A DNA stretch of 10,041 bases from a bacterium. Lineage in GTDB: Bacteria; Bacillota; Bacilli; Lactobacillales; Streptococcaceae. Of this stretch, positions 1 to 10,041 are shown piece by piece; within the stretch, counting starts at the first letter, position 1; every line of letters starts with the position of its first letter. The notes below the pieces were generated by a model. It made no database searches. It was not told the DNA's origin and saw only the letters and a program-made list of their open reading frames with translations. Position numbers and translations under genes: made by a program. The stretch lies in NCBI GenBank assembly GCA_905221345.1, contig CAJNCW010000013.1, positions 1 through 10,041 on the forward strand, written 5' to 3'.

Positions 1-78
1 CGAACACAGCAGTTAAGCCCTAGAACGCCGGAAGTAGTTGGGGGTTGCCCCCTGTGAGATATGGAAGTCGCTTAGCTT
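1..78 (+). rRNA. rrf: 5S ribosomal RNA, 3' part
   Basis: The window opens inside a 5S rRNA. The segment starting CGAACACAGCAGTTAAG and continuing through CGCCGGAAGTAGTTGG to the GTCGCTTAGCT end is the conserved 3' two thirds of streptococcal 5S rRNA. The 5' part lies before the window, so the gene is cut by the window edge, not broken. The exact 3' end is estimated. A tRNA gene follows within a few bases, as is usual at the end of streptococcal rRNA operons. Confidence 0.95.
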
Positions 79-81
79 TTA

Positions 82-155
82 TCCGCCATAGCTCAGTTGG
101 TAGTAGCGCATGACTGTTAATCATGATGTCGTAGGTTCGAGTCCTACTGGCGGAG
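82..155 (+). tRNA. tRNA-Asn (anticodon GTT)
   Basis: A full cloverleaf can be folded by eye. The 7-bp acceptor stem TCCGCCA pairs with TGGCGGA (148-154), with discriminator G at 155. The D-loop contains AGCTCAGTTGGTAG and the T-arm contains GGTTCGAGTCC. The anticodon stem CATGA/TCATG closes the loop CTGTTAA, which places anticodon GTT at 116-118 and reads Asn codons. CCA is not encoded. The gene is probably co-transcribed with the 5S rRNA just upstream. Confidence 0.97.
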
Positions 156-161
156 TATAGT

Positions 162-191
162 AAGGAACGTTCTGATGAGCGTTTTTTTTTT
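162..191 (+). terminator. Weak intrinsic terminator after tRNA-Asn
   Basis: A short stem (AACG 166-169 with CGTT 180-183, extendable by G-T pairs) is followed by an unbroken run of ten T (182-191). The stem is weak but the U-tract is strong, and the position, about 10 bases after the tRNA, fits the end of the rRNA-tRNA transcript. Confidence 0.6.
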
Positions 192-269
192 GCTCTTTGT
201 CAACTGTAGCAGGTTGAAGTCAGCTAATATTTGAAGGGAACTAATTTGCTCCCCTCCTTAGCATAGAAA

Positions 270-323
270 TTACAGAGCCTTATTTTTCTTATTCGATGTT
301 TTTCAATCTATTTCGCTCTGTAA
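270..323 (+). repeat. 9-bp perfect inverted repeat flanking a U-rich loop
   Basis: TTACAGAGC (270-278) is the exact reverse complement of GCTCTGTAA (315-323). The 36 bases between are pyrimidine-rich. The right arm ends inside AAGGAG (322-327), a good Shine-Dalgarno sequence for an ATG at 334. If the region is transcribed, pairing of the arms would touch the first two bases of that ribosome binding site. No clear promoter was seen just upstream, so transcription would have to come from the rRNA side. Confidence 0.6.
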
Positions 324-333
324 GGAGAGAAAT

Positions 334-372
334 ATGGTACAAAAAGCTCATAGCTTATCTCACACGCTGTGA
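334..372 (+). CDS. Possible 12-residue mini-ORF (MVQKAHSLSHTL)
   Basis: The ATG at 334 has a near-ideal Shine-Dalgarno AAGGAG at 322-327 with 6 bases of spacing, which is better than that of several real genes here. The frame ends at TGA 370-372 inside the first copy of a 28-bp tandem repeat. Short streptococcal peptides can act as leaders or signals, but this one has no signal peptide or known pheromone motif. It lies between an upstream inverted repeat and a downstream 18-bp hairpin, an arrangement that could suit a leader peptide. It may equally be chance or the stub of a decayed gene. Confidence 0.25.
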   Translation: MVQKAHSLSHTL

Positions 373-402
373 ATCTCATAGCTTATCTCACACGCTGTGA
401 AT
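347..402. repeat. Perfect tandem duplication, 2 x 28 bp
   Basis: Positions 347-374 and 375-402 are identical 28-base units in direct contact. Each contains the short palindrome TCACA-CGC-TGTGA. The first unit is also preceded by AAG, making AAGCT-CAT-AGCTT (344-356). With no spacer between the copies this is a tandem duplication, not a CRISPR array. The unit is not a multiple of three, so it would shift any reading frame through it. Confidence 0.9.
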
Positions 403-404
403 AT

Positions 405-453
405 AGAGGAAAGGTCATCTATAATCAATTTTGAAATAGATGACTTTTTCTCT
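405..453 (+). terminator. 18-bp hairpin with U-rich right arm, probable terminator
   Basis: Left arm 405-422 pairs over its full length with right arm 436-453 (16 Watson-Crick and 2 G-U pairs), leaving a 13-base loop. The right arm and following bases are T-rich (TTTTTCTCTTTTC), so the structure most plausibly ends transcription coming from the rRNA or mini-ORF side and insulates comW. The U-run lies partly inside the stem, so it is not a textbook terminator. Confidence 0.6.
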
Positions 454-511
454 TTTCTTTCAGTATTTTTTATTTTTTTGTTCGTTTAGATTGCTATTTT
501 CACTTTACAGG

Positions 512-541
512 AATTTTGGACTAAAGCTTTTAAATTTTTGA
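512..541 (+). promoter_or_regulatory. Putative ComE-box (9-bp direct repeats 21 bp apart) for comW
   Basis: AATTTTGGA (512-520) and AATTTTTGA (533-541) agree at 8 of 9 positions and start 21 bp apart, i.e. two 9-bp half-sites separated by 12 bp. That is the known spacing of ComE response-regulator sites in early competence promoters, and comW is a known early gene in S. pneumoniae. The match to the ComE consensus itself is only partial, so assignment rests on geometry and position. The second half-site ends 8 bases before the -10 element. Confidence 0.5.
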
Positions 542-549
542 TATCCTAA

Positions 550-555
550 TACTAT
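550..555 (+). promoter_or_regulatory. -10 element of the comW promoter
   Basis: TACTAT lies just downstream of the putative ComE half-sites. Transcription would start near 562, giving a leader of about 20 bases. This argues against an ATG at 562 as the translation start, because that codon would sit at the mRNA 5' end without a ribosome binding site. There is no good -35, as expected for an activator-dependent promoter. Confidence 0.5.
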
Positions 556-582
556 AAAAAAATGAAATGGAGATTATTGAGG

Positions 583-819
583 ATGTTTCAAGATATCTAT
601 GAACAAATTATTGAATTTTGTGATGCTGTTGAGCAGGAGTATAATGGGTTATTTGCTGATAAAACGAAATGGGAAACCACACATCTTGGTTATTTGCATT
701 ATTATTTAATTCGCTATAAGATTACTGATGAAAGAGATTTTATTATCTATCATTTTAGAACATCCTATCGTTTATTTTTAGAAAAATTTGTGATGAAAAG
801 GAATTTTATTTCTAATTGA
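583..819 (+). CDS. comW: ComW, competence protein that stabilises and activates sigma-X
   Basis: This 78-residue protein matches the length and pattern I remember for pneumococcal ComW: MFQDIYEQ at the start, YYLIRY and RDFIIYHFRTSYRLFLEKFVM near residues 39-73, and an FIS ending. In S. pneumoniae, ComW protects the alternative sigma factor ComX from proteolysis and stimulates its use by RNA polymerase, so it is needed for full late-gene expression and transformation. The ATG at 583 is chosen over the in-frame ATG at 562. It has GGAG (569-572) 10 bases upstream and gives exactly the family length, while 562 coincides with the expected transcription start. Its place before purA is conserved. 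The sequence is clearly diverged from the pneumococcal form, which suggests a sister species. Confidence 0.9.
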   Translation: MFQDIYEQIIEFCDAVEQEYNGLFADKTKWETTHLGYLHYYLIRYKITDERDFIIYHFRTSYRLFLEKFVMKRNFISN

Positions 820-820
820 G

Positions 821-979
821 TCAAGATTATTAAAAGACGAACGATAGGCAACTAATGAGATTATATTAACAGTAATTAACAATTATTTCTCTTTAGATAT
901 TTTTAAATGGAGAGAATTTCCAGATGTTTCTACGCTGAGTCTTGAAAAAATGATGAAGTTTTATTATAATAAATTGTAA
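821..979 (+). pseudogene. Remnant of an unidentified coding sequence, one in-frame stop
   Basis: One frame reads SRLLKDER, then TAG (845-847), then about 43 protein-like codons ending in LDIFKWREFPDVSTLSLEKMMKFYYNKL and TAA (977-979). The mix of charged and hydrophobic residues resembles the C-terminus of a real protein, such as the helical end of a regulator, rather than random AT-rich sequence. The family is not recognised. There is no ribosome binding site or plausible full-length start, and the purA promoter lies within the last codons. It is read as a decayed 3' fragment between comW and purA; chance remains possible. Confidence 0.35.
942..970 (+). promoter_or_regulatory. purA promoter (TTGAAA-17-TATAAT)
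   Basis: TTGAAA (942-947) and a perfect TATAAT (965-970) are separated by exactly 17 bases, a strong sigma-70/SigA-type promoter. The start of transcription is expected near 977, which gives purA a leader of about 70 bases and excludes the ATG at 983, which would have no ribosome binding site. Confidence 0.8.
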
Positions 980-2335
<1,356 letters not shown>

Positions 2336-2341
2336 GAGATT

Positions 2342-2374
2342 TTTAAGATTTGTTTAAGATAGGTCGGGTATACT
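2342..2374 (+). promoter_or_regulatory. CiaR-dependent promoter of the csRNA
   Basis: TTTAAG (2342-2347), five bases, then TTTAAG (2353-2358) is an exact match to the CiaR response-regulator site known from S. pneumoniae. It lies 10 bases before the -10 hexamer TATACT (2369-2374), the expected geometry. Transcription should begin near 2381. Confidence 0.88.
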
Positions 2375-2380
2375 ATAGAC

Positions 2381-2480
2381 AGTTACAAGAAGACCTCCTA
2401 ACTTGTTGTAACAAATATCCTAAACTTTTCTTTTTCATAATAATCTCCCTATTAAGTCACCGCATTCGGTGGCTTTTTTT
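2381..2480 (+). ncRNA. Cia-dependent small RNA (csRNA family)
   Basis: The RNA of about 100 nt starts with a hairpin (GTTACAA 2382-2388 with TTGTAAC 2406-2412) whose loop exposes ACCTCCT (2393-2399), complementary to a Shine-Dalgarno. A single-stranded U-rich middle follows. It contains TTTTTCAT (2431-2438) and ATCTCCC (2443-2449), so its complement reads AGGGAG, spacer, ATGAAAAA, a translation start site. It ends in a GC-rich hairpin (2455-2462 with 2467-2474, loop CATT) and seven T. This is the architecture of the pneumococcal ccn csRNAs, which act downstream of CiaRH and repress translation of mRNAs including comC. Which ccn paralogue this is cannot be decided from sequence alone. Confidence 0.88.
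2454..2480 (+). terminator. Terminator of the csRNA
   Basis: The stem AAGTCACCG / CGGTGGCTT (2454-2475, one U-G pair, 4-base loop) is followed by a T-run to 2480. It forms the 3' end of the small RNA and separates it from the tadA promoter. Confidence 0.9.
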
Positions 2481-2493
2481 GTGTTGAGAATCA

Positions 2494-2502
2494 TGATATA
2501 AT
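2494..2502 (+). promoter_or_regulatory. Extended -10 promoter of tadA
   Basis: TGATATAAT is a perfect extended -10 (TGN-TATAAT), a type common in streptococci that works without a good -35. The position 17 bases upstream has only a T-run from the preceding terminator. Transcription should start near 2509, about 24 bases before the tadA ATG. Confidence 0.75.
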
Positions 2503-2532
2503 AATAAAATCGAGTAGGAAAAGGGAAAATTG

Positions 2533-3000
2533 ATGAATTATACAGTTGAAGAAAAAGAAGCTTTTATGAGAGAGGCTTTGAGAGAGGCTGAGATTGCCTT
2601 AGAACACGATGAAATTCCAATTGGTTGTGTGATTGTCAAGGATGGAGAAATCATTGGCCGTGGGCATAATGCGCGCGAGGAGTTGCAACGGGCGGTTATG
2701 CATGCAGAAATCATGGCTATAGAGAATGCGAACGTGAGTGAAGAGAGTTGGCGCTTGCTGGATTGTACGCTTTTTGTGACCATTGAGCCTTGTGTTATGT
2801 GTAGTGGGGCGGTTGGGCTTGCCCGTATTCCAAACGTAGTCTACGGGGCTAAAAACCAGAAATTTGGTGCTGCTGGGAGTTTGTACGATATTTTGACAGA
2901 TGAGCGTCTTAATCATCGTGTAGAGGTCGAAACGGGAATTTTGGAAGATGAATGTGCAGCTATTATGCAAGACTTTTTCCGAAATCGACGGAAAAAATAA
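2533..3000 (+). CDS. tadA: tRNA-specific adenosine deaminase
   Basis: TadA deaminates adenosine 34 in the anticodon of tRNA-Arg(ACG) to inosine, letting one tRNA read CGU, CGC and CGA. The 155-residue protein shows the zinc deaminase signature: HAE (His57 as ligand, Glu59 as proton shuttle) and PCVMC (Cys87 and Cys90 as ligands). The N-terminal helix EEKEAFMREALREAEIA and the basic C-terminal FFRNRRKK, typical of tRNA-binding TadA forms, are intact. The start is the ATG at 2533 after the Shine-Dalgarno AAGGG (2521-2525), not the TTG one codon earlier. The gene has its own extended -10 promoter and is followed by the SRP RNA gene. Confidence 0.96.
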   Translation: MNYTVEEKEAFMREALREAEIALEHDEIPIGCVIVKDGEIIGRGHNAREELQRAVMHAEIMAIENANVSEESWRLLDCTLFVTIEPCVMCSGAVGLARIPNVVYGAKNQKFGAAGSLYDILTDERLNHRVEVETGILEDECAAIMQDFFRNRRKK

Positions 3001-3026
3001 TTTCTCTTTTAAAATAGAGAGGTATG

Positions 3027-3035
3027 TGGTATAAT
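3027..3035 (+). promoter_or_regulatory. Extended -10 promoter of the SRP RNA gene
   Basis: TGGTATAAT is a perfect extended -10 element. Transcription seven bases downstream would begin at about 3042, exactly where the closing stem of the SRP RNA begins. The -35 region at 3007-3012 is TTTTAA, a poor match. Confidence 0.8.
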
Positions 3036-3042
3036 AAACAGT

Positions 3043-3120
3043 GGAGCAACAATTCTGCGTGAAGCGGGTCAGGGGAGGAATCCAGCAGCCCTAAGCGATG
3101 TGAATTGTGTGCTCTTTTTT
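3043..3120 (+). ncRNA. ffs: Signal recognition particle RNA, small bacterial type
   Basis: The closing stem pairs GAGCA (3044-3048) and ACAATTC (3049-3055) with GAATTGT (3102-3108) and TGCTC (3110-3114). At the tip are the SRP domain IV hallmarks: GGGTCAGG, a GGA/TCC stem capped by a GGAA tetraloop (3077-3080), and AGCAGCCC on the other side. This hairpin binds Ffh (SRP54) and the complex directs nascent membrane and secreted proteins to FtsY. The length, about 75 nt plus a U-tail at 3115-3120, fits streptococcal scRNA, which lacks the Alu domain found in Bacillus. The closing stem and U-run also serve as terminator. Confidence 0.93.
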
Positions 3121-3129
3121 CGTGCTTTT

Positions 3130-3137
3130 TTCGAATA
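3130..3137 (+). promoter_or_regulatory. Cin-box (sigma-X / ComX promoter) for the dut-radA unit
   Basis: TTCGAATA matches the combox TACGAATA at 7 of 8 positions and is preceded by a T-rich stretch, as in other ComX promoters. Genes from dut through radA are known late competence genes in S. pneumoniae, which supports the call. A possible ordinary -10 (TAAAAT, 3145-3150) overlaps downstream and could give basal expression. Confidence 0.75.
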
Positions 3138-3185
3138 AATAAGATAAAATAGCCTAGAATAAATGATAATAGAAAAGAGAAAAAG

Positions 3186-3629
3186 ATGAAAATTCGTGGT
3201 TTCGAGTTGGTTTCGAGTTTTACAGACGAAAATTTATTGCCTAAGCGTGAGACAGCGCATGCAGCAGGTTACGACTTAAAGGTAGCAGAACGTACGGTGA
3301 TTGCTCCAGGCGAGATTGTCTTGGTTCCGACAGGTGTTAAGGCCTACATGCAGCCGACAGAAGTGCTCTATCTTTATGACCGTTCATCAAACCCTCGTAA
3401 GAAGGGCTTGGTCTTGATTAACTCAGTTGGGGTCATTGATGGGGATTATTATGGAAATCCTGGAAATGAGGGACATATCTTTGCGCAGATGAAAAACATT
3501 ACTGATCAGGAAGTGGTTCTTGAAGTTGGGGAACGTGTGGTTCAGGCTGTCTTTGCACCATTTTTAATTGCAGATGGAGATGCAGCTGATGGCGTGCGGA
3601 CTGGTGGATTTGGATCGACTGGGCACTAA
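3186..3629 (+). CDS. dut: dUTP diphosphatase (dUTPase)
   Basis: Dut hydrolyses dUTP to dUMP and pyrophosphate, keeping uracil out of DNA and supplying dUMP for thymidylate synthesis. All five motifs of the trimeric dUTPase family are present in 147 residues: AAGYDL (26-31), DRSSNPRKKG (65-74), GVIDGDYYGNPGNEG (82-96) with catalytic Asp85, GERVVQAVF (115-123), and the glycine-rich C-terminal arm RTGGFGSTG (138-146) that closes over the nucleotide. The Shine-Dalgarno is weak (AGAGA-rich stretch before 3186). It is the first gene after the cin-box, so it is probably induced with radA during competence, which suits DNA synthesis after uptake. Confidence 0.96.
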   Translation: MKIRGFELVSSFTDENLLPKRETAHAAGYDLKVAERTVIAPGEIVLVPTGVKAYMQPTEVLYLYDRSSNPRKKGLVLINSVGVIDGDYYGNPGNEGHIFAQMKNITDQEVVLEVGERVVQAVFAPFLIADGDAADGVRTGGFGSTGH

Positions 3630-3680
3630 GATGAAGTCTTTATGAGTCAGAATACTTTTGATGGAAAATAGGGGAGAAGT

Positions 3681-4379
3681 ATGTCAGGGTTATATTTTGA
3701 AGTGAGATCTAGGTTAAGAAGAAAGTTTAACTGGTGGGAAGATATAGGATTCAAATTTTTTGAAGTTGTTCTACTTTTACTTCTAATACTTTATGTTGTG
3801 GATTTAGTATATTCTAATTCATATGCTTCAAATACAGATTTTTTAAACGTACTAATATTTTTTTTCGTTTATCGTGGTTTTGCGATATTTAGAAAAAATA
3901 AAGTAATAAACATTGCAATACAATATAAGCGAAATAACATTTTAACTCCAGAGGATATTGATAAACTTTTAAAAGAAATTAAAAAATCAGTCAATTCTAC
4001 TAGAGATTTAATAAAATGGGGAATGGGGATTTTTGCAACAATTACAATTGCTTTTTTATCCATTGCTTCAACATTATTTTCAAAAATAATTGATTTATTA
4101 ACGAAGAATATTTCAGAAACAGAACTATTAAAATATTTCAGAGACTTATCAATTGAATCTATAGTAATAGAATGGATAAAAATTCTATTTTCAATTTTGA
4201 TTATAGTTATTGCATTCTTGTTGGTTATATATATCATATTAGATTTATTCACTTATGATAGAAGATTTGTGTATAATATTTTAATAAATTTTCAGTATAA
4301 TGCTTTCCAAATAGGAGAGATAAAACAAAAAAGATTTTGGACATCGTTGAAAGAAATATTTTTTATAGATTATTTTTAA
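3681..4379 (+). CDS. Unknown AT-rich multi-pass membrane protein inserted between dut and radA
   Basis: I do not recognise this 232-residue protein. Hydrophobic segments at about residues 27-47, 53-71, 113-137 and 163-190 suggest four membrane passes. A basic N-terminus (RSRLRRKF) precedes the first. A polar, Lys-rich segment (about 72-112, with [13 protein letters not shown]) and an aromatic, charged C-terminal tail are probably soluble. No catalytic motif is visible. The Shine-Dalgarno GGGGAGAAGT fits the ATG at 3681. The gene lies about 50 bases after dut and its stop is only 3 bases before the radA ribosome binding region, so it probably shares their transcript. Sampled lines have about 18-30% G+C against about half in radA, and rare AT-rich codons dominate, which suggests horizontal gain. 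From memory, pneumococcus has a different gene here. Confidence 0.7.
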
Positions 4380-4395
4380 TAGAAAGAGGTTTATC

Positions 4396-5757
4396 ATCGC
4401 AAAGAAAAAAGCGACATTTGTATGTCAAAATTGTGGGTATAATTCCCCTAAATATTTGGGGCGCTGTCCAAACTGTGGATTTTGGTCTTCTTTTGTCGAG
4501 GAAGTTGAGATTGCAGAGGTCAAGAATGCGCGTGTGTCCTTGACAGGTGAAAAAACCAAACCTATGAAACTGGCTGAGGTGACTTCAATCAATGTCAATC
4601 GAACAAAGACGGAGATGGAGGAATTTAACCGTGTACTTGGAGGCGGAGTGGTTCCAGGAAGTCTCGTCCTAATTGGGGGAGATCCTGGAATCGGGAAATC
4701 AACGCTTCTTTTACAAGTTTCAACCCAGTTGTCTCAAGTGGGGACGGTTCTCTACGTCAGTGGGGAGGAGTCTGCCCAGCAGATTAAGTTACGAGCAGAG
4801 CGCTTGGGAGATATTGATAGTGAGTTTTATCTCTATGCAGAGACCAATATGCAGAGTGTTCGATCTGAGGTAGAGCGCATTCAACCAGATTTTCTCATCA
4901 TCGACTCTATCCAGACTATTATGTCTCCTGAGATTTCAGGGGTGCAGGGGTCTGTGTCTCAGGTGCGCGAGGTGACAGCTGAACTCATGCAGTTGGCCAA
5001 GACTAATAACATTGCCATCTTTATCGTAGGGCATGTGACTAAGGAAGGAACCTTGGCTGGTCCGCGTATGTTGGAGCATATGGTAGATACAGTGCTTTAC
5101 TTTGAAGGGGAACGTCACCATACCTTTCGTATTTTGAGAGCGGTCAAAAACCGTTTTGGCTCGACAAATGAGATTGGGATTTTTGAGATGCAGTCAGGTG
5201 GATTGGTTGAGGTGCTCAATCCGAGTCAAGTTTTCCTAGAGGAGCGTTTGGATGGAGCGACTGGCTCATCAATCGTGGTGACTATGGAAGGAACGCGTCC
5301 GATTTTGGCGGAGGTCCAGGCTTTGGTAACACCAACCATGTTTGGAAATGCTAAACGCACGACGACAGGACTTGATTTCAATCGTGCGAGTCTGATTATG
5401 GCTGTTTTGGAAAAACGAGCAGGGCTTCTCTTGCAAAATCAGGATGCCTATCTCAAATCTGCTGGTGGTGTGAAATTGGATGAGCCTGCCATTGACTTAG
5501 CCGTTGCGGTTGCTATTGCTTCTAGTTACAAGGACAAGCCTACCAATCCTCAGGAATGTTTTGTGGGTGAACTGGGCTTGACCGGAGAAATTCGGCGCGT
5601 GAATCGTATCGAACAACGTATCAATGAAGCGGCAAAATTGGGCTTTACTAAGATTTATGTACCTAAAAATTCCTTGACAGGAATCACTCCACCCAAGGAA
5701 ATTGAGGTGATTGGAGTGACGACTATTCAGGAAGTTCTGAAACTGGTCTTTGCTTAA
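4396..5757 (+). CDS. radA: RadA, RecA-like DNA branch migration ATPase, apparent ATC start
   Basis: RadA (Sms) is a hexameric DnaB-like motor that extends RecA-made D-loops and is needed for pneumococcal transformation and repair. From 4396 the 453-residue protein shows a zinc finger (Cys10, Cys13, Cys24, Cys27), Walker [10 protein letters not shown] (95-103, Lys101), a Walker B LIID (ending Asp170), the RadA-specific KNRFG (251-255), and a C-terminal Lon-protease-like domain. No ATG, GTG or TTG precedes the finger in frame after the stop at 4366-4368. A TTG at 4456 would cut off half the zinc finger. The ATC at 4396 aligns with the usual MAKKK start and has AAAGAGG (4383-4389) six bases upstream. 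A rare ATC start is therefore inferred. It follows the membrane gene closely. Confidence 0.93.
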
Positions 5758-5760
5758 TCT

Positions 5761-5789
5761 GTGACAAATCTTCTTAAAAATGATAAGAT
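5761..5789 (+). promoter_or_regulatory. Promoter of the carbonic anhydrase gene
   Basis: GTGACA (5761-5766, five of six to TTGACA), a 17-base spacer, and TAAGAT (5784-5789) preceded by TGA (extended -10) form a credible promoter immediately after the radA stop. It would start transcription near 5796, giving a leader of about 35 bases, and it occupies the place of the more upstream GTG start codon. Confidence 0.6.
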
Positions 5790-5829
5790 AGGAGAAATAT
5801 TTGCTGATCAAATTTTTAAGGGGGAAATC

Positions 5830-6324
5830 GTGTCGTATTTTGAACAGTTTATGCAAGCCAATCAGGCTTATGTTGCCCTTCATGGGAAATTAAATCTGCC
5901 ACTTAAGCCGAAAACAAGAGTAGCAATTGTGACCTGCATGGACTCACGGCTACACGTCGCGCAAGCTTTAGGTTTAGCACTTGGAGATGCCCATATCTTG
6001 CGGAATGCTGGCGGTAGAGTAACTGAGGACATGATTCGTTCACTGGTGATTTCCCAGCAACAAATGGGGACAAGAGAAATTGTGGTGCTTCACCATACAG
6101 ACTGTGGAGCTCAAACCTTTCAAAATGAAAGTTTTCATGAACATTTGAAACACGAGCTCGGAGTTGATGTGTCTGATCAAGATTTTTTACCATTCCAGGA
6201 TGTTGAAGAGAGTGTGAGAGAGGATATGCAGTTACTTCGAGAATCTCCACTGATTCCTGATGATGTGGTTATTTCAGGTGCTGTCTATGATGTGGATACA
6301 GGAAGTATGAGAGAAGTATACTAA
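5830..6324 (+). CDS. Beta-class carbonic anhydrase, short form
   Basis: The enzyme interconverts CO2 and bicarbonate, which feeds carboxylations such as fatty acid, aspartate and nucleotide synthesis; in pneumococcus a carbonic anhydrase is needed at ambient CO2. The 164-residue protein carries CMDSR (36-40: zinc ligand Cys36, Asp38-Arg40 dyad), the RNAGGR loop (58-63), and HTDC (His89 and Cys92 as zinc ligands). This is the compact prokaryotic beta type. The GTG at 5830 is chosen because AAGGGGGA (5818-5825) lies just upstream and MSYFEQFM is the usual start. An in-frame GTG at 5761 would add 23 residues overlapping the promoter. The C-terminus (SMREVY) seems to differ from the pneumococcal one as I remember it. 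Confidence 0.93.
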   Translation: MSYFEQFMQANQAYVALHGKLNLPLKPKTRVAIVTCMDSRLHVAQALGLALGDAHILRNAGGRVTEDMIRSLVISQQQMGTREIVVLHHTDCGAQTFQNESFHEHLKHELGVDVSDQDFLPFQDVEESVREDMQLLRESPLIPDDVVISGAVYDVDTGSMREVY

Positions 6325-6411
6325 CTTTGTCTCGAAAAAATCTCATCCTAGCATAAAATCGATTGTTAAAATGTAGGGTTTTTAGTTTCAATATAGCTAA
6401 TATAAAATAGC

Positions 6412-6450
6412 ATAAAGCAAGGGTATAAATGTTTGCTCTTGTTTTATTTT
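6412..6450 (+). terminator. Probable terminator after the carbonic anhydrase gene
   Basis: ATAAAGCAAG (6412-6421) pairs over ten positions (one G-U) with CTTGTTTTAT (6438-6447), with more T after it. The 16-base loop contains further self-complementarity (GCAA with TTGC as an alternative). The rest of 6325-6411 shows no gene or other clear signal. Confidence 0.55.
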
Positions 6451-6453
6451 TGA

Positions 6454-6482
6454 TTGAAAAATAAAGGAAAAAGCGCTACAAT
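6454..6482 (+). promoter_or_regulatory. prs promoter (TTGAAA-17-TACAAT)
   Basis: TTGAAA (6454-6459) and TACAAT (6477-6482) are separated by 17 bases. Transcription would start near 6489, leaving a leader of about 50 bases before the prs ATG, which has the strong Shine-Dalgarno GGAGG (6529-6533). Confidence 0.8.
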
Positions 6483-6538
6483 GGTAAATGGAAAATGTTG
6501 TGTAAAAAACAAGTGATACATAAATACCGGAGGAAATC

Positions 6539-7507
6539 ATGTCTTTTTCTGATTTAAAGCTGTTTGCCCTTTCTTCTAATAGAGAATTGGCAGAGCGTGT
6601 GGCGCAAGAGATTGGGATAGAGTTGGGGAAATCGACTGTTCGCCAATTTTCAGATGGGGAGATTCAGGTCAACATCGAAGAATCAATCCGTGGAAAACAC
6701 GTCTTTATCCTACAATCAACTAGTTCACCTGTAAATGATAATTTACTTGAAATTTTGATTATGGTGGACGCATTGAAGCGTGCTAGTGCAGAATCTGTCA
6801 ATGTTGTTATGCCTTACTATGGCTATGCTCGTCAGGATAGAAAAGCGCGCGCGCGTGAGCCAATCACTTCAAAACTCGTTGCCAACATGTTGGAAGTGGC
6901 TGGAGTGGATCGTTTGTTGACGATTGATTTGCACGCTGCACAGATTCAGGGATTCTTTGATATTCCTGTGGATCACTTGATGGGTGCTCCACTGATTGCG
7001 GACTACTTTGAACGTCGTGGCATGGTTGGCTCTGACTACGTGGTTGTCAGCCCAGACCATGGTGGGGTGACTCGTGCTCGTAAATTGGCAGAGTTTTTGA
7101 AAACTCCGATTGCGATTATTGACAAACGCCGTAGTGTAGACAAGATGAATACCAGTGAAGTGATGAACATCATTGGTAAGGTAGAAGGTAAGACTTGTAT
7201 CTTGATTGACGATATGATCGATACAGCTGGAACCATTTGCCATGCAGCGGATGCTCTTGCTGAAGCAGGTGCTGTTGAAGTTTACGCAAGCTGTACACAC
7301 CCAGTACTTTCTGGGCCAGCTATGGACAATATCCAAAAATCAGCTATTAAGAAATTGGTTGTTTTGGATACTATCTACCTACCAGAAGAGCGTTTGATTG
7401 ATAAGATTGAACAAATTTCGATTGCTCATCTTCTAGGCGATGCTATTATCCGTATCCACGAAAAACGTCCTCTTTCTCCTCTATTTAGTATTGAGAAAAC
7501 CATTTAA
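6539..7507 (+). CDS. prs: Ribose-phosphate pyrophosphokinase (PRPP synthetase)
   Basis: Prs transfers pyrophosphate from ATP to ribose 5-phosphate to give PRPP, the precursor for purines, pyrimidines, NAD, histidine and tryptophan. The 322-residue protein has the class I features: FSDGE and the ATP-side loop [15 protein letters not shown] (96-110), [11 protein letters not shown] (130-140), and the PRPP-binding loop [12 protein letters not shown] (221-232). The length and the C-terminal [13 protein letters not shown] are normal. It is transcribed alone from its own promoter. No clear terminator follows directly; a short open remnant in the same frame does. Pneumococcus carries two prs paralogues; the position after radA and the carbonic anhydrase corresponds to the first. 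Confidence 0.97.
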
Positions 7508-7627
7508 ATCGGGTATCTGAAAGTCTATGACCCTTCAAAAGTAGAGAAATCCTTCTTAGATAGTGATGAAGTGTCATCTTCAGAGGTAATGATTAAGGAA
7601 GAATCTCCGAAAATGTTCGTCTTTTAG
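7508..7627 (+). pseudogene. 39-codon open remnant in frame after prs
   Basis: Directly after the prs stop (TAA 7505-7507) the same frame stays open for 39 codons to TAG 7625-7627, reading GYLKVYDPSKVEKSFLDSDEV and ending ESPKMFVF. The composition looks protein-like, but there is no start codon at its head, no ribosome binding site and no family I recognise. It could be the stump of a deleted gene fused by recombination, or chance. Stop-codon readthrough would add it to Prs, but nothing in the sequence supports that. The remainder up to 7731 shows only an A/T-rich tract before the next promoter. Confidence 0.25.
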
Positions 7628-7731
7628 ACATTTCTATCAGCTATTGCTAGTAAGAAAATCGCTTGCACGGCTTATGTAGAGAAAATTTTTCCCACTTTAC
7701 TAGATTTTTTCAAAAAAAAATTAAAAAACAC

Positions 7732-7759
7732 TTGACAACCGCCATATATATGATATACT
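7732..7759 (+). promoter_or_regulatory. Strong promoter for the LPKTHAAK protein (TTGACA-16-TATACT)
   Basis: A consensus TTGACA (7732-7737), a 16-base spacer and TATACT (7754-7759) preceded by TGA (extended -10) are present. A-tracts at 7711-7728 sit where an UP element would be. Transcription would start near 7766, giving a leader of about 50 bases. Everything points to high constitutive expression. Confidence 0.85.
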
Positions 7760-7818
7760 TGTAGGTAATAAGGCCTGTCCTTATAAATTAATTATGAATT
7801 TAAAGAGGAGATAAAACA

Positions 7819-8451
7819 ATGAAAAAAGTTTTATTATCATCAGTAGCAGCACTTGCAGTATTTTCTGCAGCAGCTCCAGCTTTTGCCCAAGGTGAAAACC
7901 CAAATTCTTCTAACCAATTGATCCAAAAGAAATATGTTTCTGAACGTGATATTGCTGATGAAGTTAATACACAAGTAGCAGCACACGAAGCTGAAATCAA
8001 CGAAGAAGCTGAACGTCAACCAGCAGTTGTAGCAGCTAAGGCAGCTCTTGAAGCATACGGTTCAGGTCATCTTTACGGCGAATATGTAGCTAAAGTTGAA
8101 GCAGCTCGTACAGAAGCACGTAACATCGTTCGTAACCGTTATGTTCAAGTAATCCAAGAAAAAGTACGTGAAGCAGCTAAAGCTCAAGGTAACTACTGGA
8201 ACGATCCAACTGGTATTGAAGACAACAAACCAAACGATGTTCGTAAAGCTGAAGATCAAGCTAACCAAACAGGTAAAGGATCTGGTAAAGGATCAGCTAA
8301 ACCAACAGATGGTAAAGGATCAGCTACTCCAGAACCAGGTAAACCAGGTGCTGTAGATCAAGCTAAAAAAGCTGACGATGCAGCTAAAAAAGCTGGTGTA
8401 GCGGCTAAAGCTGGTCAAAAAGCTCTTCCAAAAACACACGCTGCTAAATAA
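7819..8451 (+). CDS. Secreted alanine-rich protein with C-terminal LPKTHAAK, likely sortase substrate
   Basis: The 210-residue precursor has a signal peptide (MKK, hydrophobic core, cleavage expected after AFA at residue 23). Residues 35-125 are Ala/Glu/Lys-rich and helix-prone, with possible coiled coil. Residues 150-180 are low-complexity (repeats of GKGS with Pro), like a wall-spanning linker. A Lys/Ala-rich helix leads to LPKTHAAK (203-210) at the very C-terminus. The motif resembles LPxTG, but the Gly is His and the hydrophobic segment and basic tail of ordinary sortase substrates are absent. The Shine-Dalgarno GAGGAG (7805-7810) is strong. The next gene is a class B-like sortase. I recall a described LPKTxAVK protein/sortase family; unverified. 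The mature function is unknown. Confidence 0.85.
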   Translation: MKKVLLSSVAALAVFSAAAPAFAQGENPNSSNQLIQKKYVSERDIADEVNTQVAAHEAEINEEAERQPAVVAAKAALEAYGSGHLYGEYVAKVEAARTEARNIVRNRYVQVIQEKVREAAKAQGNYWNDPTGIEDNKPNDVRKAEDQANQTGKGSGKGSAKPTDGKGSATPEPGKPGAVDQAKKADDAAKKAGVAAKAGQKALPKTHAAK

Positions 8452-8475
8452 TTCATTGATTTGATGAAGTAGCCT

Positions 8476-8506
8476 ATCACTGAAACTTCGTTTCAGTGAT
8501 TTTTTT
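8476..8506 (+). terminator. Terminator between substrate and sortase genes
   Basis: ATCACTGAAA (8476-8485) pairs perfectly with TTTCAGTGAT (8491-8500) around CTTCG, followed by seven T (8500-8506). No promoter is visible between it and the sortase gene, so sortase expression probably depends on partial readthrough, giving much substrate and little enzyme. Confidence 0.9.
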
Positions 8507-8536
8507 GGTAAAAGTGGAAAAGATGAAGGAGAAAAG

Positions 8537-9373
8537 ATGAGTAGACGTTCTAAGAAAAAGAATTTGTCCGTTTGGAAAATTATTGCTTCCGTAGTCACAG
8601 TAGCTATTGTTGCGGTTGGTGGGTATTTTATCATTAATAGCCTTTCTACTCCCAACGACTCAACCAACGAGCCAAAAGTTACTCAGGAAACTAAAAAACC
8701 AGCCTATACAGCCAGCGCAGAAGAAAAGGAATACCTTTCAAATAAATTTAAGGGCTTAACTTCGACCAACTCGGAGACAATTGCCTATGTCTATGCTCCT
8801 GGTACACAGTTAGATGAGCCTGTTGTTCAAACAAAGGACAATGAAACCTACCTCAATAAAACCTTTGAAGGGGACAATGTTCCTTATCTAGGTGCTGTAT
8901 TTATGGATACGGACAATAAGAAAGATTTTAGTGATCGTTTGACATGGTTGTTTGCCCATGCGAGAGGAAGTAAACTTGGCGATCATCGTATGTTCAATGA
9001 TGTGAACTATTATAGCCGTCAAGACTATTTTGATGAACATCCTTATGTTGTTATCGAAACACCTGAGAGAAAGTTCTATTATGAAGCCGTTGCGATGATC
9101 ATTGTACCAGAAGAAACAGCCTTCTATCGCACTAGTTTTGATGATGACAAAGATTTTGAAAAACAGCTAACCACTATTTACGATACAGCAGAGGTTAAAA
9201 AACCAAATGTGAAAGTATCTGCTAAGGATAAGTACCTTGTTCTTTCTACTTGTCGTGAAGAGGATGATACGATTCGTGCTAATCTCTATCTTCGCCAAAT
9301 TCCTGATTCAGAGATGAGTGAGTTTGTCAAACAACATGGAGAGAAATTGACTTATAAACCAACCAGATCATAA
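8537..9373 (+). CDS. Class B-like sortase, probably specific for the LPKTHAAK protein
   Basis: Sortases are membrane transpeptidases that cut a C-terminal sorting motif and join the protein to cell-wall peptidoglycan or another protein. The 278-residue protein has a basic cytoplasmic N-terminus, one membrane anchor (about 14-34), a polar linker, then a sortase fold. Likely catalytic residues are His141 in LFAHAR, Cys239 in YLVLSTC and Arg247. The LSTC motif, the length and the insertion between His and Cys (MFNDVNYYSRQDYFDEHPYVVIET) fit class B rather than the housekeeping class A or pilus class C. The start is set by AAGGAG (8526-8531). It lies 85 bases after the substrate gene, past a terminator. 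Substrate specificity is inferred from adjacency. Confidence 0.9.
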   Translation: MSRRSKKKNLSVWKIIASVVTVAIVAVGGYFIINSLSTPNDSTNEPKVTQETKKPAYTASAEEKEYLSNKFKGLTSTNSETIAYVYAPGTQLDEPVVQTKDNETYLNKTFEGDNVPYLGAVFMDTDNKKDFSDRLTWLFAHARGSKLGDHRMFNDVNYYSRQDYFDEHPYVVIETPERKFYYEAVAMIIVPEETAFYRTSFDDDKDFEKQLTTIYDTAEVKKPNVKVSAKDKYLVLSTCREEDDTIRANLYLRQIPDSEMSEFVKQHGEKLTYKPTRS

Positions 9374-9379
9374 AACCAG

Positions 9380-9421
9380 ATCCTCCTAAAGTCAGATAAG
9401 ATGATTTTAAGAGGATTTTTT
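9380..9421 (+). terminator. Terminator after the sortase gene
   Basis: Left arm 9380-9394 pairs with right arm 9402-9416 over 15 positions (one mismatch, one G-U) around a 7-base loop, followed by a T-run to 9421. It closes the substrate-sortase unit. Confidence 0.88.
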
Positions 9422-9447
9422 GCATTCAGATAATTCATAGCAAAAAC

Positions 9448-9476
9448 CTGCAAGCCTTTTCAAAATGTGCTATACT
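9448..9476 (+). promoter_or_regulatory. Extended -10 promoter of the CoA-binding protein gene
   Basis: TATACT (9471-9476) is preceded by TGC, an extended -10. The -35 at 17 bases spacing, CTGCAA (9448-9453), is poor. Transcription would start near 9483, immediately upstream of the strong Shine-Dalgarno AAGGAGG (9484-9490), so the leader is very short. Confidence 0.65.
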
Positions 9477-9496
9477 GAGAAAAAAGGAGGATTTCT

Positions 9497-9934
9497 ATGA
9501 GCCAAGAATTTATCAATCCAAGTGATGGTGTGATTCGTCAGTATCTGGCGACCAGTAAAACGTTAGCGGTAGTGGGCTTGTCTGATCGTGAGGAAACAAC
9601 TAGCAATCGAGTGACCAAGGAAATGCAGGCTCGAGGCTATAAAATCATTCCAGTTAATCCCAAGGCTGCAGGTGGGGAAATCTTGGGAGAAAAGGCTTAT
9701 GCGAGTCTAACTGAGATCCCTTTTCCAGTGGATATTGTCAATGTATACCGACGTAGCGAATTTTTACCAGATGTGGCGCGTGATTTTCTCAAGGCTGATG
9801 CTAAGATTTTCTGGGCGCAATTAGGACTTGAAAATATAGAAGCGGAAGAAATCTTACGTGCTGGGGGATGCGATGACATCGTGATGAATCGCTGTATTAA
9901 GAGAGAACATACTCGCTTAATTCTTGAGCAATAA
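9497..9934 (+). CDS. CoA-binding domain protein (YccU-like)
   Basis: The 145-residue protein is a single Rossmann-type CoA-binding domain like that of succinyl-CoA synthetase alpha subunits. The first strand and glycine loop are LAVVGLSDRE (23-32). IIPVNPK (50-56) ends the second strand, followed by DIVNVYR (79-85) and a C-terminal segment AQLGLENIEAEEILRAGGCDDIVMNRCIKREH with the conserved Asn-Arg-Cys. Proteins of this family bind CoA, but their cellular role is not established. There is no catalytic partner nearby; it has its own promoter and terminator. The start at 9497 is fixed by AAGGAGG seven bases upstream. The length is normal and no defects are seen. Confidence 0.88.
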   Translation: MSQEFINPSDGVIRQYLATSKTLAVVGLSDREETTSNRVTKEMQARGYKIIPVNPKAAGGEILGEKAYASLTEIPFPVDIVNVYRRSEFLPDVARDFLKADAKIFWAQLGLENIEAEEILRAGGCDDIVMNRCIKREHTRLILEQ

Positions 9935-9961
9935 AAAGGTAGCCAGTAGGCTACCTTTTTT
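9934..9961 (+). terminator. Terminator after the CoA-binding protein gene
   Basis: AAAAGGTAGCC (9934-9944) pairs with GGCTACCTTTT (9949-9959) around AGTA, with more T following. The hairpin begins within the stop codon. The A-run on the left gives it some capacity to terminate in the opposite direction too. Confidence 0.93.
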
Positions 9962-9982
9962 GTATTATGTGACTATTAGTCC

Positions 9983-10031
9983 GTCTCGCTCCGTCAGGTG
10001 CGAGACAAATAAACCACCCGCTATGCGGGTG
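9983..10031. repeat. Two GC-rich hairpins, possible end of a REP or IS200-like element
   Basis: GTCTCGC (9983-9989) pairs with GCGAGAC (10000-10006) around a 10-base loop. CACCCGC (10015-10021) pairs with GCGGGTG (10025-10031) around TAT. Neither has a T-run, so they are not ordinary terminators. The segment is much richer in G+C than other intergenic DNA here. Tight subterminal hairpins of this kind occur at ends of IS200/IS605 elements and in REP sequences, but the window ends before any transposase could be seen. Confidence 0.35.
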
Positions 10032-10041
10032 CGCATCGAAG

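Follow-up and report, generated by a model that had tools for sequence, protein, structure and literature searches.

What becomes of a secreted protein that ends at LPKTHAAK when a class B-like sortase is encoded immediately downstream of it? The question is raised by a pair of genes at positions 7,819 to 9,373 of a 10,041-nucleotide (nt) stretch of a Streptococcaceae genome (GenBank assembly GCA_905221345.1, contig CAJNCW010000013.1, positions 1 to 10,041 of the forward strand; hereafter the window), in which a sequence-only reading had seen a dedicated pair with unusual recognition. We are highly confident that the two genes are best explained jointly as an abpA-srtB operon whose host is a Streptococcus of the oral, mitis-group-like kind, in which the sortase SrtB would anchor the amylase-binding adhesin AbpA to the cell wall and a hairpin between the genes would keep SrtB scarce. 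The pair, its motif (including the His and the AAK end) and its chemistry are already published, and what we add are genus-wide counts of pairing and tails and a count of the intergenic hairpin. The features concerned are the following.

7732..7759, + strand: promoter-like site of abpA (TTGACA, 16 nt, TATACT, the second hexamer preceded by TG; agrees with the consensus at 11 of 12 positions)
7806..7810, + strand: putative abpA ribosome-binding site AGGAG, from reading the sequence
7819..8451, + strand: abpA, amylase-binding adhesin, 210 residues, ATG start (NF040523, PF22224 and PDB 2nd4 matches)
7819..7887, + strand: predicted AbpA signal peptide, residues 1-23 (MKK...AFA), from hydrophobicity and the description in PMC5399409
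8425..8448, + strand: C-terminal sorting signal LPKTHAAK (NF040524, 27.8 bits, cut-off 20), with a likely cut at Thr206/His207
8476..8506, + strand: terminator-like hairpin between abpA and srtB, 11 pairs and a loop of 3, then six T
8527..8531, + strand: putative srtB ribosome-binding site AGGAG, from reading the sequence
8537..9373, + strand: srtB, LPKTxAVK-specific class B sortase, 278 residues (NF040525 match)
8570..8638, + strand: predicted SrtB N-terminal membrane helix, residues 12-34 (model helix, of low confidence there, and hydrophobicity)
8957..8959, + strand: SrtB His141, invariant in 36/36 aligned SrtB
9251..9253, + strand: SrtB Cys239, in LSTCR, invariant in 36/36 aligned SrtB
9275..9277, + strand: SrtB Arg247, invariant in 36/36 aligned SrtB

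Both genes run in the same direction, with 85 nt from the abpA stop to the srtB start codon. Promoter-like sites number six in the region against 5.4 expected in shuffles, and it is thus only match quality and place that support the one assigned to abpA.

Evidence for the substrate comes from family models and from its C-terminus. AbpA scores 252.6 bits over residues 2-210 against NF040523 (amylase-binding adhesin AbpA; curated cut-off 150) and 60.9 bits against PF22224 (cut-off 27), and matches PDB 2nd4 with an expectation value (E) of 8.5e-35. As first read, the 210-residue frame closes on ...KALPKTHAAK with a stop codon right after it, leaving four residues past the Thr, and there is no C-terminal membrane segment: strong hydrophobicity is confined to the signal peptide (19-residue mean of up to 2.01, from residue 4), and the maximum past residue 40 is 0.61. 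A canonical LPxTG sorting signal, comprising motif, hydrophobic segment and positive tail, is thus missing from AbpA. A frameshift hiding a normal membrane tail, which the earlier reading had allowed for, was rejected, since both alternative frames near the abpA end soon reach stops and since relatives share the same kind of end; one of these frames holds an 8-residue hydrophobic run beyond the stops, too short as a membrane segment. The predicted AbpA structure is weak (mean predicted local distance difference test score, pLDDT, 64.2) and nothing is concluded from it. Mutations of K37/K38, H56, Y114, V117/L118 and Y132/Y133 abolished or reduced amylase binding (PMC4974636), and these positions map, through the 2nd4 alignment, to K, K, H, Y, V, I, Y and W in the window AbpA, with six of the eight identical and two replaced by I and W. 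Judged from these residues, the window AbpA is likely to bind amylase.

The neighbouring enzyme was likewise read correctly from sequence: its His141, Cys239 and Arg247 are in the positions given, and the LPKTxAVK-type family name mentioned there is a real one in NCBIfam. SrtB scores 444.8 bits against NF040525 (class B sortase, LPKTxAVK-specific; curated cut-off 200), and the neighbouring substrate with an LPKTxAVK-type tail expected for this family is present as the LPKTHAAK gene upstream; the companion model NF040524 (LPKTxAVK-anchored surface protein) is likewise above its cut-off in the window, although the name-giving tail of both has V last but one and the window tail has A. SrtB further reaches 221.4 bits against TIGR03064 (cut-off 153.75), falls just under the cut-off of Pfam PF04203 (24.3 vs 26.6), and has the properties of a class B sortase, namely the sortase B fold, the catalytic His, Cys and Arg, and a membrane helix near the N-terminus, where hydrophobicity peaks at residue 15 (2.53). 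Identity to Staphylococcus aureus SrtB, which recognizes NPQTN, and to other structure-solved class B sortases is about 25%. The substrates of these sortases generally carry a membrane segment and a charged tail past the motif. S. aureus SrtB was unable to replace the LPKTxAVK SrtB in vivo or in vitro (PMC4974636).

How such a pair works had been thought little explored, but for relatives SrtB dependence, tail sufficiency, the cut site, a ladder of AbpA forms, amylase binding and presence in the medium are all in print. In S. parasanguinis, and partly in S. gordonii, loss of SrtB freed AbpA into the medium and abolished amylase binding, whereas loss of SrtA left binding unaffected (Liang 2016, PMC4974636); once srtB was inactivated, no AbpA was found in the wall fraction, and a 13-residue tail, KAGKALPKTSAVK, was sufficient to bring green fluorescent protein (GFP) there. 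The same paper reports that L, P and T of the tail are essential, that substitution of the residue after T (S) has minimal effect in S. parasanguinis, that deletion of AVK abolishes amylase binding, and that S. parasanguinis AbpA is cut between T and S, as is, in vitro, a fusion running on past LPKTSAVKLE into GFP-His. AbpA turned up both on the wall and in the medium, for which the authors suggest the absent membrane tether as the reason, and the ladder was not fully explained (PMC4974636). The window shares with these systems its gene order, substrate and sortase families, short-tail type, catalytic residues and most of the tested amylase-binding residues. Its tail differs, LPKTHAAK against LPKTSAVK, but lies within the motif given as LP(K/N)T(S/A/H)+A(V/A)K (Haase 2017, PMC5399409), a study that also describes a conserved 23-residue AbpA signal sequence; we see nothing in the window pair outside that motif.

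From these parallels we infer that the window SrtB cleaves AbpA behind the Thr and attaches it to the cell wall. AbpA would be exported by Sec and lose its signal peptide, and membrane-bound SrtB would capture the short, flexible LPKTHAAK C-terminus as AbpA leaves the membrane. Cys239 would attack the Thr206-His207 bond, HAAK would be released, and Thr206 would become linked to a peptidoglycan amino group; the published ladder would then come from a second acceptor, possibly a lysine on a further AbpA molecule. Because nothing tethers its C-terminus to the membrane, part of AbpA would be expected to escape into the medium, while the exposed helical body of the anchored protein would bind salivary amylase and the hairpin between the genes would probably keep SrtB scarce relative to AbpA. 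Four of these points are our own inferences for the window: the exact T|H cut, the nature of the acceptor groups, the timing of capture during export, and the effect of the hairpin. The non-standard attachment route once entertained is not needed for wall anchoring, the incompletely explained ladder notwithstanding (PMC4974636).

The hairpin recurs across the family. The whole abpA-srtB gap of the window folds with a z-score of -2.36, and with a threshold of -9 kcal/mol a terminator-like hairpin is present in 71 of 77 distinct abpA-srtB pairs (41 distinct hairpins), compared with 11 of 385 intergenic sequences after shuffling. Each of the 77 pairs is a unique substrate plus its intergenic sequence (69 of the latter are distinct); the set includes the window and two loci with LPE tails, and its members are related by descent. 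The hairpin is probably a partial terminator, giving much substrate and little enzyme. In an S. gordonii secretome AbpA was represented by 12 peptides and SrtB by two (PMC4297671), which fits this dose idea but is no proof of it, because SrtB is a membrane protein. In the literature checked, whose scope excludes the original abpA papers, we found no report of an abpA-srtB hairpin; the word 'terminator' is absent from the main text of PMC4974636 and PMC5399409, and the terminator mentioned in PMC4297671 is that of an inserted tet(M).

To what extent do tail and enzyme go together? Across 284 Streptococcus genomes we scored the sortase by its model and the tail by a DNA pattern that fixes L/F-P-K/N-T-x-A-x-K plus stop, so that only its free positions are informative. 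The pattern was used instead of NF040524 because genuine tails escape that model at E 0.001: it gave no match in 13 of 46 genomes, of which 11 were positive by DNA pattern, and as for a second substrate, 33 of the 46 had one NF040524 match each and none had two. A sortase above cut-off was present in 108 genomes (113 genes) and the tail pattern in 95, with both in 94, the sortase only in 14 and the tail only in one (Fisher p 1.2e-58, a statistic that ignores genome relatedness); the lone tail-only genome was rejected as spurious, its pattern lacking a following stop codon. The reversed pattern matched once each in four of the 284 genomes. The partnership proposed from sequence is borne out, and the expected co-occurrence holds in the great majority of cases: 94 of 96 pattern matches lie 89-273 nt upstream of the sortase match, and the only second match in any one genome, FPKTSACK in G182, is not near a sortase. 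The 94 tails comprise LPKTSAVK (55), LPKTHAAK (14), LPKTSAAK (8), LPKTHASK (5), LPKTHAVK (4), LPNTAAVK (4), LPNTSAVK (2), LPKTGAVK (1) and LPNTAAIK (1).

Homologues tell a similar story. Among 46 sortase loci from a scan of genome contigs, 42 have a tail gene directly upstream, and a looser expression (LP-x-T plus 2-6 residues) also gave 42, all LP[KN]TxAxK. Among the 120 AbpA homologues listed (2273 were found), 118 begin MKK and 119 carry the tail at the end, with LPKTHAVK in 67, LPKTHAAK in 51, and LPKTHASK in one; the one exception, P0080 from a short metagenome contig, has a longer, partly hydrophobic end after LPKTHAV, possibly a frame error. Mean column identity is 28% over 44 substrates and 67% over 36 sortases, and AbpA-type precursors range from 124 to 270 residues in the 41 loci listed. 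Since the locus rows of the substrate alignment were chosen by tail and trimmed to the first MKK, its invariant M1 K2 K3 and L203 P204 T206 A208 are partly built in, and the homologue counts are the fairer test. By these alignments and counts, tail signal and enzyme are conserved and the substrate body is much freer.

Several points weigh against the joint explanation. The experimental support comes from relatives, and the in vitro AbpA ladder differs from that in cells, with no pilus-like structure seen in the published work (PMC4974636). Hairpins of this kind are not rare: of 56 other pairs of co-directional genes at the same loci, separated by 40-130 nt, 20 have one. The hairpin also speaks for transcription ending between the genes, whereas co-transcription of abpA and srtB as an operon has been reported (PMC5399409; 2025 review PMC12650345), so that read-through must be substantial. 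Pairing is also not absolute: the exact tail pattern is missing from 14 of the 108 genomes that have the sortase, and in nine of these 14 we found no adjacent tail gene. A sortase without a neighbouring substrate, which counts against strict pairing, does therefore occur, but in a minority.

These exceptions are varied. In three sortase-only genomes (G268-G270) the upstream gene ends LPKTSVAK, and in G059 and G172 (loci L097 and L101) the gene preceding an NF040525 sortase has LPNTCVLPE or LPNTSALPE as its last residues, an acidic end instead of a basic one. A looser tail pattern, sought anywhere in the nine tail-less genomes and Gemella sanguinis, matched in none of the ten, while its reversed control matched in five. 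Among the 46 loci, S. massiliensis (L015) and three Gemella (L039, L041, L044) have no upstream tail gene, and NF040525-type sortases with no adjacent tail found are those of L015, L039, L098, L099, L100, L102, L103, L104, L105, L109, L110, L112 and L113; the adjacent-gene check took frames of at least 45 or at least 60 residues with a start codon, and short or broken substrates could escape it. The sortases of L099, L100, L104 and L109 form one clade and adjoin the same two downstream genes. Five genomes hold a second sortase copy: the one in G042 has LPKTSVAK upstream, those in G040, G043 and G122 have no adjacent tail gene, and in G232 (L114:3295-5931) a single tail gene (4291-5016, ending LPKTSAVK) is flanked by two sortase genes. 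In two Gemella haemolysans genomes the single tail gene lies outside the 6 kb fetched on each side of the sortase; in one it encodes a 225-residue protein ending LPKTHAAK that is 48% identical to the window AbpA (L068, 850-1527), and in the other a 137-residue protein ending LPKTSAAK that is AbpA-like at the tail end only (L067, 1501-1914). A G. haemolysans abpA without the usual srtB has been noted before, with horizontal transfer proposed (PMC5399409). In the sortase tree a script marked 18 rows as ORPHAN, of which at least three adjoin a tail (L005, whose tail gene is cut by a contig end, L126, and L114:3295, whose tail gene is on its other side). As separate observations, the substrate of G184 (L126) has its signal peptide and tail in different frames and looks broken, the G030 (L030) sortase match holds an in-frame stop, and the sortase N-terminus is lipoprotein-signal-like (e.g. 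VSGCSS, LVGCG, LAGCG) in L037, L038, L039, L040, L041, L043 and L044, three Gemella and four streptococcal loci.

Taken more widely, the LPKTxAVK sortase may be a general short-tail sorting machine and not an amylase-binding device, serving fast-changing cargo in animal and oral streptococci and in Gemella, sometimes in trans, with other ends (LPKTSVAK, LPNTxxLPE) and a dose set by a conserved partial terminator; we regard this as a serious possibility, held tentatively.

A narrower alternative, which we consider unlikely, is that recognition depends on the octapeptide's free C-terminal carboxylate itself, which a sortase resembling a C-end-reading enzyme would read once the protein is secreted. 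The tail coincides with the protein end in all 42 upstream genes of the sortase-found loci and in 119 of the 120 AbpA homologues listed, and deletion of AVK alone abolishes amylase binding (PMC4974636). The genome pattern fixed the stop, however, and the 42 loci came from an end-anchored expression, so internal motifs could be counted by neither, and the AVK deletion takes away residues besides shifting the end. A free carboxylate is unlikely to be essential because the fusion extended past the tail was cut in vitro (PMC4974636); the earlier suggestion that the eight-residue C-terminus alone is read therefore fits as regards its shortness, but not as regards a required free end.

Far less probable is that the His after Thr and the AAK end mark a novel variant of recognition, the sortase having adapted together with the His. 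The H tails do cluster in the sortase tree (15 rows need three changes, vs 12.0 in shuffles), so that tail and enzyme lineage go together, but such clustering follows from the common descent of neighbouring genes, and two S-tail rows (L124, L127) sit within the H clade. The His does stand in place of the Gly of LPxTG, as had been remarked, but is no oddity, being part of the published motif (PMC5399409) and present in 23 of 94 tails, and the minimal effect of substituting the residue after T in S. parasanguinis (PMC4974636) points the same way. Least credible of all is that AbpA is held on the surface non-covalently, for instance by its Lys- and Ala-rich C-terminal part (13 Lys and 14 Ala in the last 60 residues), and that SrtB serves for processing only, for although AbpA occurs both on the wall and in the medium, it is missing from the wall fraction without srtB, and GFP with the 13-residue tail reaches that fraction (PMC4974636).

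The gene order in the window is purA, tadA, dut, a 232-residue membrane protein gene, radA, a carbonic anhydrase-like gene, prs, abpA, srtB and a CoA-binding protein gene, with the names purA, tadA, dut and radA taken from translations and not from a database search; prs and the CoA-binding protein gene are among the flanking genes listed for abpA/srtB (PMC5399409). The closest fetched locus, L122, has a DNA identity of 97.2% in prs and 98.8% in srtB, and its genome belongs to the same genus as that of the S. gordonii locus, which makes the source of the window a Streptococcus. In the tree, the window sortase has Streptococcus sp. LQJ-218 and S. hohhotensis as its nearest named rows; the set also contains S. 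mitis and S. pseudopneumoniae, and we take these to be mitis-group. Elsewhere in the window, the membrane protein gene between dut and radA (3681-4379) has no DNA match in the fetched loci, and its product no Pfam match above cut-off. In radA there is, at 4393-4455, no ATG, GTG or TTG between the in-frame stop and the zinc finger, and the likely start is ATC or ATT after AGAAAGAGG; radA of L001, L004 and L006 shows the same. The end of the window (9965-10041) is a 91% match to L027 3665-3741, placed differently relative to srtB, and is perhaps a dispersed repeat. Three RNA features complete the window.

82-155: tRNA-Asn
2382-2479: csRNA1 (Cia-dependent small RNA)
3033-3131: small signal recognition particle (SRP) RNA

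For the window itself, the result mainly closes the question, since pair, motif and chemistry are published. The side results, namely the hairpin, the orphan sortases and the systems with variant ends, are of moderate interest, and the shortness of the sorting signal also gives it practical appeal as a minimal tag.
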